A stretch of DNA of 64,000 nt from Fidelibacterota bacterium (GTDB lineage: Bacteria > Fidelibacterota > Marinisomatia > Marinisomatales > TCS55): positions 62,001-126,000 of the forward strand of contig SCKN01000006.1 of the NCBI GenBank assembly GCA_004124385.1, read 5' to 3'. Position 1 is the stretch's first letter; each line of letters starts with the position of its first letter. The translations under genes were made by a program, and so were the position numbers. Of this stretch, positions 52,431 through 56,525 are shown piece after piece. The notes beneath the pieces were generated by a model. It saw nothing but the letters and a program-made list of their open reading frames with translations. It ran no database searches and was not told where the DNA came from.

Positions 52431-53821
52431 TTTAATACAATATTTTTCTGCACAGTTTTCAAATGCTTTACATAGTCAACGTGTGTTGATGCAATTGAAA
52501 TACTTATACACATCCATAAAACTCGATTATCATTTATATCACCGGAAAATTGAGCTGATATAAACATCACAATTGTTACTGCTACCCAAACTGCACTATG
52601 TTCTGAAAGTTTACCATTAATTATTCCAATTCTAATTTTATTAAACGATGCAATAAGAAATCCACTAAAAACAATAAAGCCCGTTAACCCGTATTCTACT
52701 AATATTTCAAAAAATACATTATGAGGATACCAGCGCCAGTCACGCCAAATAAATAAGGAACTAAATCCGCCGGCTCCTTTGCCCATTATTATATTCCAGA
52801 AAGATGAAGACCAACTTACAATTGACATCTGCCAATAACCTAAACGAGTAGCAACAGTGTTAACTTGTTTTACTCCTTCAGGAGTCATAAGAACGGCTCC
52901 TTTTGTAATATCAAAAAACCGTTTGGTTATTATTTCTGGCAAAATAAATAACATAGAGATTGATATAAATATTGCAAATAAACTATAAATATAAATTCTA
53001 TTTTTTTGTTGTTTTTCAAATATAAATGCATAAATCAAAACACCTAAAAAAATGCTTACTAATGGTCCTCTTGATCCAGTTGCAATTATTCCAAGTAAAA
53101 GCATCAGTAGCATAAACATTACTGATTTATTGTTATGAATTGATCTTTTTATTAAAAAAACTATCATTATTGTTGCACCGATTGCTAAATATCTACTAAC
53201 CTGAATTGGATTCGCTCCAGGTATAGAGAATCGATTATAATAACCTAGTAGGAATGCAAATTTTCCTGAAATTGCAAAATAAATAAATTGACTAATTATC
53301 CCAATCAAAATAATAAAAATCGAATACTTAAAATACTTTAGTATTTTTTCAGAATCTGAAGTTGATTTGATAATTATTAAAGGTGTCAAAAACATAGAAA
53401 ACCCAATAAAAGCAAAACGTATAACTTTACTCGTTCCATAAATTGGAGATGGTGTATAAAACAATGAAAAAGCAGTCACAAATATTAATAATATAAATAG
53501 AAATAATGGTTGTTTATGTTCATTTACAAATCTCCAATTTCCTTCAAAAAGTAATTTTATTAATCCAAGCCATAGTATTAGCGTTATAACAATTGTAGTG
53601 TCTAAAATTGAAAAGATTGGAAAGTATTGAATAAGTACACCTTTGATTACAGCTGTAAAGCTTAAAAGCATAAGTGTAAATCCAACGTGATTTATTAACA
53701 TCCACAAGATTACAAATCCAAGTGGTATAAAAAAGATCACAAATGGATGAGTTTTTATACCAACAATGATACAAACTAACTCACTTAATATTAAAAAAGA
53801 AAGTGAGATATAATTATACAC
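52427..53821 (-). CDS. O-antigen polymerase / ligase family (Wzy-like)
   Basis: 464 residues with about 11-12 membrane helices. The large periplasmic loop contains GKGAGGFSSLFIWRDWRWYPHNVFFEILVEYG, the Wzy_C/WaaL signature (HN...E..EYG). LLLGIIATGSRGPLVSIFLG is the other conserved stretch, with Arg. In this locus, beside Wzx and Wzz, a polymerase role is likelier than ligase; sequence alone does not separate them. Confidence 0.85.
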   Translation of the reverse strand: MYNYISLSFLILSELVCIIVGIKTHPFVIFFIPLGFVILWMLINHVGFTLMLLSFTAVIKGVLIQYFPIFSILDTTIVITLILWLGLIKLLFEGNWRFVNEHKQPLFLFILLIFVTAFSLFYTPSPIYGTSKVIRFAFIGFSMFLTPLIIIKSTSDSEKILKYFKYSIFIILIGIISQFIYFAISGKFAFLLGYYNRFSIPGANPIQVSRYLAIGATIMIVFLIKRSIHNNKSVMFMLLMLLLGIIATGSRGPLVSIFLGVLIYAFIFEKQQKNRIYIYSLFAIFISISMLFILPEIITKRFFDITKGAVLMTPEGVKQVNTVATRLGYWQMSIVSWSSSFWNIIMGKGAGGFSSLFIWRDWRWYPHNVFFEILVEYGLTGFIVFSGFLIASFNKIRIGIINGKLSEHSAVWVAVTIVMFISAQFSGDINDNRVLWMCISISIASTHVDYVKHLKTVQKNIVLN

Positions 53822-55503
53822 TATAAATTCTTTAATTGTTTTCTAAATTCAGATGAATAATGCTCTGAAAAGATATATATTATTGAAACTACAAGACCCA
53901 TTATTATTGATGCTATCACTATCAAAGATCTTATTGGCTTTGATTTATTAATTGGTACTTTTGGTGCATCAATTATTTGTAATGTGGGAATATTTTTAGT
54001 TTCTTCTAAACGAGCTGTTTCATATTGTGGTAATAGTAGTTCTAGGAGTGTATTTTGGATTGTTAATGCTCTTATCAATCTTGCATTTTCCATTCCTAAT
54101 TCAGGGAAATTATCAAAATTTATCATCGTGGGCAGGTATTCTAATTCATTATTTATCATCGTGGGCAGGTATTCTAATTCATTATTTATCATCGTGGGCA
54201 GGTATTCTAATTCATTTATTATCATCGTGGGCAGGTATTCTAATTCATTTATTAAATTCTTACCCTCTATTTTCTCTAAACCCAAAATGATATCCAGCAA
54301 CTGTTTATCCAAACTCGAAGTAATTAGATCTAATTGTTTTTCTTGTTCATTTAACATTACTTCATACCTCTTAATAGCAGGATTATTTGGATTCAATGTA
54401 GCTTTGGAAACATTTAACTGAATCTCAGTTTGAGCCTTAAGAGAATACAATTCAGTGTAGGCTATCATTTCCTGATTATAAAGTTGGCCATAGGCTTGCA
54501 TTTCTTGAATTTGCCTCCTTTCCTGCATTTCCTTTTCCTGCAGTTGCCTCCTTTCCTGCATTTCCTTTTCATGCAGTTGCCTCCTTTCCTGCATTTCAGC
54601 TTGTCGTGCAAACAGCTCCTTTTCCTGCAGTTGCCACTGCGTTTCCTGGATGTAGATTTGGCCATAGGCTTCATATTGTGCGCTTATTTGAGATACAATA
54701 TCTACTATACCCGTTTCTTCCTGGAAATCTTTAAGGTTTACTTCAGCTGTAGCTAAATCGAATCTTGCTTGATTTAATCTTCGTTCTAAAAATTCCCTGT
54801 TATATCGACCTTTATCCATACTTAGTCGTTGGTTGATATTATCCAGTTGAATTAGTAATTCTTCAACCATCTTTTTAGCTATAAGGGGATCCTTATCAAT
54901 AACTGATATTTTCATTGTACCTTCTTCAGTTACTTCAATTTCCATTTTTTCTTCAAAAGCTACCATTGCATATTCAATATCTTTTTCATCATATCGATTA
55001 ATTAAATCGAATTTTTTAACCATATGACTTTTAACAGATCTACTGTTTAAAATGGCAATAAACTTATTTATATCTTCACTTAAACTTGATAATCCAAAAT
55101 CTGCTACAGGTATTGGAGATAATGATGAAAGTAAACTGAACCTCCCTGTGTCAGAAGATAATATAATTGCCTGTGAAGTATACCATTTAGGTAAAAGTAG
55201 CGCAATAATGATAGAAACAACAGTTACAAATCCAATATTTTTGAGTATGAATTTTCTTTTTGTCCATAAAAGAAGTAAATTTTTCTGCATATTATTATCT
55301 GAAAAATCATCAATTTCGTTTATAACTCCTTGATTGTTAATTAACCCATATCTTTTCAAGTCACCTATTCGATTACGTAAAGTTTTTTCAGTCATTCCGT
55401 GTTCATCAGCTATTTGTTTCCTAGCATTAGGATCTATTAGAATTTCAGGATTTTCTTTGATTAAGTTTAATATTTTCTGCTCATGTGTGGATAATTTGAT
55501 CAT
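53821..55503 (-). CDS. Wzz-like chain-length regulator with N-terminal winged helix and 11-residue repeats
   Basis: 560 residues. Residues 1-65 look like a winged helix-turn-helix (LSTHEQKILNLIKENPE, then ARKQIADEHGMTEKTLRNRI and DLKRYGLI), followed by NLLLLWTKRKFILKNIG and TM1 (about 87-106). The periplasmic part has the Wzz fold elements and a long coiled coil, with MQERRQLxEKE repeated at 304-334 and (I/N)NELEYLPTMI four times at 418-461. PKVPINKSKPIRS and TM2 (about 524-545) end the protein. No BY-kinase domain. Wzz sets polymer length. The first gap-free overlap (one base) is with the Wza-like gene. An HTH on the cytoplasmic end of Wzz is unusual. Confidence 0.85.
   Translation of the reverse strand: MIKLSTHEQKILNLIKENPEILIDPNARKQIADEHGMTEKTLRNRIGDLKRYGLINNQGVINEIDDFSDNNMQKNLLLLWTKRKFILKNIGFVTVVSIIIALLLPKWYTSQAIILSSDTGRFSLLSSLSPIPVADFGLSSLSEDINKFIAILNSRSVKSHMVKKFDLINRYDEKDIEYAMVAFEEKMEIEVTEEGTMKISVIDKDPLIAKKMVEELLIQLDNINQRLSMDKGRYNREFLERRLNQARFDLATAEVNLKDFQEETGIVDIVSQISAQYEAYGQIYIQETQWQLQEKELFARQAEMQERRQLHEKEMQERRQLQEKEMQERRQIQEMQAYGQLYNQEMIAYTELYSLKAQTEIQLNVSKATLNPNNPAIKRYEVMLNEQEKQLDLITSSLDKQLLDIILGLEKIEGKNLINELEYLPTMIINELEYLPTMINNELEYLPTMINNELEYLPTMINFDNFPELGMENARLIRALTIQNTLLELLLPQYETARLEETKNIPTLQIIDAPKVPINKSKPIRSLIVIASIIMGLVVSIIYIFSEHYSSEFRKQLKNL
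54121..54252. repeat. 33-bp tandem repeat array A (4 units) in the Wzz-like gene
   Basis: Four head-to-tail 33-base units beginning TATCATCGTGGGCAGGTATT at 54121, 54154, 54187 and 54220; they differ only in the last few bases. On the minus strand each codes for an 11-residue (I/N)NELEYLPTMI unit (residues 418-461). The near-identity at the DNA level suggests recent expansion, and any copy change keeps the reading frame. Confidence 0.95.
54502..54594. repeat. 33-bp tandem repeat array B (about 3 units) in the Wzz-like gene
   Basis: Units of 33 bases built on TTGCCTCCTTTCCTGCATTT, starting at 54511, 54544 and (shorter) 54577, with a partial unit before. They encode MQERRQLxEKE (residues 304-334). 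Different sequence from array A but the same 33-base period, about 250 bases away. Confidence 0.9.
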
Positions 55504-56525
55504 TAGTTTATAGTCGCTTGATATGCTAAAATTAAAGTTGCTATTGAAGTTACTGCTTGAATAAACCCTGTATTTCCAAATAATATGCTTGAGTATGATT
55601 CTGGAACTTCGATGATATCACCGGGTTCAACAAATTCATTATTAGCAAATCTTATTATTTCTCCATTTGATCTAATTATTTTAGATCTATAATTTGAACC
55701 AATATCTAAAATTCCTCCGCTCATGGCAATATAGTCTTTGACTTTATAACCTGGTAAAAATTTTAATATTTTAGGGCCGCGAATAAATCCAGTAATAATT
55801 ATTCGATTATTATTATACTCTATAAAACTTTTCAGATTATCTTTTTCTAGTTCTTTAAATGGTACATAAATAATGTCTCTCTCTATCAATTGAGGATTAT
55901 TATTTAAATCACCATTTATTAAAAATTTCTTAAGATATATTTCTTTTGTTTCTCCATTTCGTTTTAAGAATATTTTATTGTTATCTGCATATTTTTGTAT
56001 TCCTCCGGCGCCATTCAAAGCATCGTACAATCTACTTACTGGTGTAACTTTCACAAATTTTGGATTATTCACTGCACCATGGACTAATACTTTAAATTGT
56101 CTTAATCTAATTAATGTAACCGTAATTATAGCTTCTTTATAAATTTTATCTTTGTAATCATTTAATTCTCTTTCAATATCTGCCAGTGTTTTTCCAACAA
56201 CATTTATTGGTCCAAGTTTAGGAATAAATAAAGTTCCAGTGGGATCGATTAAAACAAAATTATCTATATTTTCAATTGACCATTCCTTAGAAATAGATTC
56301 TTCATACAATCCACCAGTTATATTAATACGCAACCTATCACCAGGTCCTAAAATATATTTCTCTGGGTCTAATGTTTGTTCTAAAGGAATAGGAACACTT
56401 CCATATTCACGGTATAATATTGGTGTATTAGATTCTTCTATTTGTGGTAATTCTAGTGATTGAGAATTCTGTGCAATCATCAAGCTAGAAATTGTTAGAA
56501 GAAACGATATTTTTTTAATTGACAT
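55503..56525 (-). CDS. polysaccharide export protein, Wza-like (SLBB domains)
   Basis: 340 residues. Signal peptide (about 1-22, ending AQNSQS); no lipobox Cys. The PES/Wza domain is YILGPGDRLRINITGGLYEES and VLIDPTGTLFIPKLGPINVVGKTLADIERELN, followed by SLBB domains (VLVHGAVNNPKFVKVTPVSRLYDALNGAGG and ITGFIRGPKILKFLPGYKVKDYIAMSGG) and a C-terminal hydrophobic helix (about 315-335), which in Wza forms the outer-membrane barrel. It is the export channel paired with the Wzz-like protein. Confidence 0.9.
   Translation of the reverse strand: MSIKKISFLLTISSLMIAQNSQSLELPQIEESNTPILYREYGSVPIPLEQTLDPEKYILGPGDRLRINITGGLYEESISKEWSIENIDNFVLIDPTGTLFIPKLGPINVVGKTLADIERELNDYKDKIYKEAIITVTLIRLRQFKVLVHGAVNNPKFVKVTPVSRLYDALNGAGGIQKYADNNKIFLKRNGETKEIYLKKFLINGDLNNNPQLIERDIIYVPFKELEKDNLKSFIEYNNNRIIITGFIRGPKILKFLPGYKVKDYIAMSGGILDIGSNYRSKIIRSNGEIIRFANNEFVEPGDIIEVPESYSSILFGNTGFIQAVTSIATLILAYQATIN

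Follow-up and report, generated by a model that had tools for sequence, protein, structure and literature searches.

The window analysed here, a stretch of 64,000 nucleotides from an uncultured marine Fidelibacterota bacterium (contig SCKN01000006.1), carries on its minus strand the gene for a kinase-less, Wzz/Wzc-like polysaccharide co-polymerase of 560 amino acids (53821-55503), as assigned from the open reading frame, Pfam and structural comparison with Foldseek and VIA. The Wzz family PF02706 matches residues 78-164 (28.5 bits against a cut-off of 25.5) and the GNVR family PF13807 matches residues 475-545 (31 bits against 27.7), and the layout is that of the PCP superfamily, with the Wzz domain placed after TM1 and the GNVR/proline-rich segment before TM2. 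P514 and P523, which lie ahead of the last helix, are invariant within the close group. Pfam finds no tyrosine kinase in this protein, which stops after its last predicted helix at residue 560, and the kinase with a tyrosine-rich tail that characterizes PCP-2a (Wzc) proteins is missing. The Wza partner alongside, which also characterizes them, is present: the upstream neighbour, overlapping the co-polymerase gene by one base, encodes a Wza-like outer-membrane polysaccharide export protein (55503-56525, minus strand) with Poly_export and SLBB domains in Pfam. The next gene downstream encodes a Wzy/O-antigen ligase-type membrane protein (PF04932; 52427-53821, minus strand), and genes resembling those for sugar-nucleotide enzymes appear to lie further upstream of the Wza-like gene.

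The co-polymerase begins with a winged-helix-like domain (codons 1-57; 55333-55503, minus strand), which precedes the first predicted membrane helix and is modelled by AlphaFold2 with a pLDDT of about 87-97; its match to HTH_24 is weak and below the cut-off (16.4 against 21.9 bits). The motif EKT(L/M)RNR of this domain is found in 36 of the compared sequences, the window protein included. The fusion may have produced a membrane-bound regulator, or the domain may be an interaction module of an unusual kind.

The periplasmic part of the protein is predicted to form a long helical hairpin. In the AlphaFold2 monomer model, built with 67 sequences and reaching a mean pLDDT of 83, the ascending helix spans codons 269-369 (54397-54699, minus strand) as two helices, 269-306 and 314-369. 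The hairpin tip (codons 370-374; 54382-54396, minus strand) sits beside a conserved tip proline, residue 375, on which the arms were also anchored for measurement, and is followed by a descending helix (codons 375-421; 54241-54381, minus strand). The last long helix (codons 463-502; 53998-54117, minus strand) leads back to the membrane-proximal base. No helix is predicted at residues 422-462, and pLDDT falls to about 40-46 at residues 411-459.

A search of solved structures with the protein sequence alone gave no match at E 0.1. The models, on the other hand, place the protein in the PCP fold: Foldseek matches the window protein to Wzc in the Wza-Wzc complex at E 1e-9, and VIA matches the model of a relative to KpsE, Wzc and WzzE with Z of 18, 16 and 13.6, unrelated rows scoring about 10. 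First of all, E. coli Wzc (in Wza-Wzc, PDB 9R64 and 9R68; PMC12881504) shares the membrane-proximal base fold and an alpha-helical periplasmic arm, and the window gene likewise adjoins a Wza-like gene. Unlike Wzc, the window protein lacks a tyrosine kinase domain and has the N-terminal winged-helix-like domain, and its arm, which contains tandem repeats, far exceeds in length the arms of its own relatives. Second, KpsE (PDB 8TSH and related) is also kinase-less and, with a Z of about 18, is the best structural match to the relative's model (rmsd 4-5.6 Å over 182-251 residues); it serves capsule export by an ABC transporter, whereas the window gene neighbours a Wzy/ligase-type protein. The structural matches to KpsE and Wzc were left out of the assignment of an export pathway. 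Third, the Wzz regulators (WzzB, WzzE and FepE) resemble the window protein in the Wzz Pfam match above cut-off and in fold (Z about 10-14); unlike the window system, they have no outer-membrane exporter partner, and their periplasmic helices are arranged differently from those of Wzc (PMC8285477).

Two tandem arrays lie within this hairpin. Array A (54121-54252, minus strand) consists of four 33-bp units, starting at gene positions 1252, 1285, 1318 and 1351 (window 54252 down to 54121), and is reported by TRF at 54118-54249 with period 33, 4.0 copies, 97% matches and a score of 250. The first-pass annotation had described a near-identical 33-bp tandem in a Wzz-like periplasmic domain; its span proves exact, and the Wzz and GNVR matches confirm the setting. 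Units 1 and 2 open with ATAAAT and units 3 and 4 with AATAAT, the remaining 31 bases being identical, and the translation, (I/N)NELEYLPTMI four times over, reads INELEYLPTMI twice and then NNELEYLPTMI twice. With two of 33 bases differing, the units are as nearly identical as those of a contingency repeat locus. Among 500 dinucleotide-preserving shuffles of the gene, the highest TRF score was 72. A 360-kb sample of the remaining host genome contains no further 33-bp array, and we ruled out that array A was copied from elsewhere, the genome having no second copy of it. The same 360 kb holds other tandem repeats, with periods of 102, 69 and 156 bp; those at L147:4060-4785 (102-bp period) and L142:317-1236 (156/311-bp period) are long arrays, probably in repeat proteins.

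Array B (54511-54597, minus strand) lies in the same gene, a 33-bp repeat of 2.6 copies encoding EMQERRQ(L/I)(Q/H)EK units (TRF score 167, 98% matches). It is contained in an insert of 47 residues (codons 288-334; 54502-54642, minus strand), rich in Q, E, R and K, which is defined by codon alignment against the two relatives described below (G001 and G005) and extends the ascending helix in the AlphaFold2 model. The length of this insert is no multiple of 11.

The two arrays differ in their predicted structure. Array A had been interpreted as a hendecad coiled coil, and this part of the first-pass annotation we reject, because each unit contains a proline and AlphaFold2 predicts no helix at 422-462 (pLDDT about 43). 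The model instead points to a flexible linker that joins the descending helix to the last long one. An 11-residue helical logic fits the ascending arm, which holds array B and whose lengths among homologues include 46, 57 and 68, and does not fit array A. A straight helix of 101 residues is not assured even so, because these are monomer models in which pLDDT in the array B region is 54-79 and the helix breaks at 307-313.

The closest relative, Candidatus Neomarinimicrobiota isolate SAT138 (PAWC01; here G001), has two contigs with the co-polymerase gene, both of which carry one array A unit (NELEHLPTMI) and lack the 47-residue insert at codons 288-334. A second relative, UBA6531 (G005), carries array A as one diverged unit and likewise lacks the insert. 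When 130 genomes of the order were searched with the DNA of the array region, substantial matches came only from the window's own genome (G000), G001 and G005, the others being short, and the four-unit form was found in one genome only; no relatives were found among viral contigs. The copy number of array A is thus not fixed: between species it is one or four units, and these relatives without four units (one in G001) leave standing the earlier idea of a variable count as against four diverged units in every relative. The predicted preservation of the reading frame also holds, as the 33-bp units are in frame and the relatives differ without a frame break. Because G005 also lacks both expansions, expansion in the window's lineage seems more parsimonious than an exact loss of both arrays in G001. 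Neither the Wza-like gene, across its aligned part, nor the Wzy/ligase-type gene shows any indel against G001 and G005. Co-expansion of the Wza-like partner is ruled out by this absence, and among the neighbours compared the large length change occurs only in the co-polymerase gene. In the G001 hairpin model, helices are placed at 266-285, 290-319 and 325-362, followed by a loop to 379 that holds a four-residue helix and by a helix at 380-419. The ascending stretch thus counts 54 residues in the G001 model and 101 in that of the window, about 81 Å and 150 Å, respectively, if straight.

The hairpin also has a sequence history of its own. The sequences of G001 and of the other relatives are metagenome assemblies. 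The window and G001 are collinear across 20 kb at 74-77% nucleotide identity, whereas codons 268-505 (53989-54702, minus strand), which coincide with the AlphaFold2 helices at 269-502, are 96.6% identical. At conserved residues, 6 of 143 codons differ inside the hairpin, compared with 80 of 186 and 22 of 38 outside it (Fisher p 2e-17 for the hairpin against the 5' part). The density of differences shifts sharply at codon 267 and again at codons 502-506, and no 150-bp window exceeds 90% identity outside the hairpin in the collinear region. A hairpin about 97% identical within surroundings about 75% identical argues that it was exchanged between species. Outside the hairpin, G001 is nearer G005 (81% and 84%) than the window (76% and 70%); inside it, G001 and the window are equally distant from G005. 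On the simplest reading of these identities, G001 would have acquired its hairpin from the window's lineage. It is the identity contrast, not topology, that carries this case (AU test for the window's genome with G001 in the flanks, p 0.03). The separate history of the hairpin from the rest of the gene appears best explained by recombination between species. Both expansions are absent from the G001 copy; the two hairpins, about 3% different in the rest of their sequence, are therefore set apart by additions of 33 and 47 residues.

Hairpins at odds with their flanks occur in further relatives. G006 and G013 are 66%, 88% and 55% identical in the 5' part, hairpin and 3' part, respectively, with borders near codons 261 and 505-512; here too the case rests on the identity contrast and not on topology (AU test, p 0.12). 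In a crossed set of four lineages, G043 goes with L053 (84/86) and G089 with L054/L055 (83-85/91) in the flanks. In the hairpin the partners change: G043 goes with G089 (72%, each having an ascending arm of 68), and L053 goes with L054/L055 (71-73%; ascending arm 57), hairpin identity within the flank pairs being only 66% and 58-59%. G043 and L053 form a clade in the flanks (100/99) that is rejected in the hairpin (AU test, p 2e-5), and the grouping of G043 with G089 is in turn rejected in the flanks (AU test, p 1e-51). The remaining incongruence cases have weaker topological support than that of G043, L053 and G089. Either exchange or old trans-species polymorphism would make the hairpin a separable length allele. 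One further copy, L056 (CAJWQR010000047.1), is titled uncultured Legionellales and groups with Neomarinimicrobiota genes; its contig is probably mis-binned.

The length of the ascending arm takes few values in the wider family. Of 107 homologues, 36 have no proline in the tip column and were excluded. In the other 71, which belong to Neomarinimicrobiota, Zixibacteria, Ignavibacteria, Eisenbacteria and others, we measured the ascending arm from F260 to the tip proline and the descending arm from the tip to P467. An ascending arm of 46 residues is found in 55 of the 71; the others have 53 (n=2), 57 (n=10), 68 (n=3) or 115 (n=1, the window protein), giving increments over 46 of +7, +11, +22 and +69. 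The first three correspond to heptad and hendecad steps, and +69 is compatible with, though no proof of, five hendecads plus two heptads. The two arms are correlated in length (rho 0.72, among related sequences and uncorrected for phylogeny), and the descending arm varies continuously, from 20 to 55, in unexpanded proteins. In G006/G013 (L012, L013), tandem duplications of 21 bp, one heptad, are visible in the hairpin region at the DNA level, and both arms are lengthened, by 7 and 8 residues relative to G002 (46/35). These duplications sit in the hairpin common to two otherwise diverged genes.

We favour, as the probable account, a length-variable hairpin cassette in which arrays A and B are parts of one structural change, altering the reach of the arm toward the exporter, and which is spread by exchange. 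Array B would add 47 residues to the ascending helix, about 70 Å at 1.5 Å per residue, and array A would act as a compensating strap that gives slack for the return, rather than as the ruler itself. We call it so on the arithmetic of the return path: both models share the end of the descending helix, and beyond it 50 residues of the window protein must cover about 95 Å; without the 33 added residues 17 would be left, spanning at most about 60 Å, on the assumption of a straight helix. The helical arms of E. coli Wzc reach out and dock on Wza to form a trans-envelope channel (PMC12881504), and removing the arm helices abolishes capsule production (PMC8285477). By extension from the Wza-Wzc structure, a longer arm would set the reach of the inner-membrane ring toward the outer-membrane exporter, and the altered reach may in turn change polymerization. 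As the Wza-like gene lies next door and is unchanged in length, the exporter is most likely what the arm reaches for, and by analogy an effect on reach to the exporter seems no less likely than one on polymer length. Slippage or unequal recombination within the repeats would generate new arm lengths, and the variants would spread between species through homologous exchange of the hairpin.

The first-pass annotation had proposed something different, namely a contingency-type minisatellite that steps surface polymer length through a longer co-polymerase. The in-frame, nearly identical 33-bp units, a count that differs from that of the nearest relative and a protein in the chain-length co-polymerase fold all agree with this, and a coiled-coil molecular ruler of O-antigen length does exist in WbdD of E. 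coli O9a (PMC5082667), a helical rod whose length matters functionally for the assembly of the polysaccharide. WbdD, however, is an analogue only: it carries a kinase/methyltransferase on a parallel trimeric coil, has no homology to the window protein, and no natural repeat variation is shown for it. Membership in the WbdD type of ruler was rejected, as the window protein has no kinase or methyltransferase domains. We consider the contingency proposal unlikely, with array A predicted to be a linker and no coil, and with a structure closer to the exporter-partnered KpsE and Wzc than to Wzz.

Neutral slippage, by which array A would be a chance expansion in a tolerant linker and array B a separate accident, with function unchanged, also strikes us as improbable. 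It would suit a four-unit form limited to one genome and an array in a predicted disordered segment that varies in sequence and length among relatives. Against it, the two expansions share one gene and lie on either side of its hairpin tip, in copies with only about 3% difference elsewhere; G006/G013 likewise have both arms lengthened; and other homologues, across several phyla, keep an ascending arm of 46. Finally, it is very unlikely that the repeat count or the common hairpin comes from a chimeric or collapsed metagenome assembly, since, although at least the relatives are fragmented metagenome assemblies and short tandem arrays can be miscounted, a single ordinary short read can contain the 132-bp array, a collapsed assembly would give too low a count and not too high a one, two G001 contigs a 9-bp indel apart both have this hairpin between diverged flanks, and incongruent hairpins recur in unrelated assemblies. 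Those two contigs (C21 and C57; L032 and L033) also differ by a few bases, and the duplicated region is either a strain mixture or an unmerged overlap.

Known systems offer only partial parallels to the exchanged, length-variable hairpin that we favour. In the open-access literature, we found no paper joining Wzz, chain length, tandem repeat and coiled coil, and nothing relevant on mosaic wzz or on repeats in co-polymerases. CagY of H. pylori (PMC2581425) likewise has in-frame repeats inside a protein of an envelope machine; the window's repeat domain differs in being seemingly exchanged between species as a cassette and in having its arrays on opposite arms of a hairpin. A broader reading, which we put forward only tentatively, is that arm length is a discrete, recombining trait, in which hairpin alleles differing by heptad or hendecad steps arise from paired tandem duplications in both arms, are traded among marine bacterial species and tune the trans-envelope exporter as a swappable module.

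Related proteins thus provide a natural series of hairpins, with ascending arms of 46, 53, 57, 68 and 115 residues, which includes a pair 97% identical besides length, with neighbouring pathway genes of constant length. The series bears on how co-polymerases determine polymer length and on how their arm is coupled to the exporter: it offers a ready way to ask whether polymer length, docking on the exporter or neither is under the control of arm length. It also suggests domain-sized recombination as a means of altering envelope geometry.
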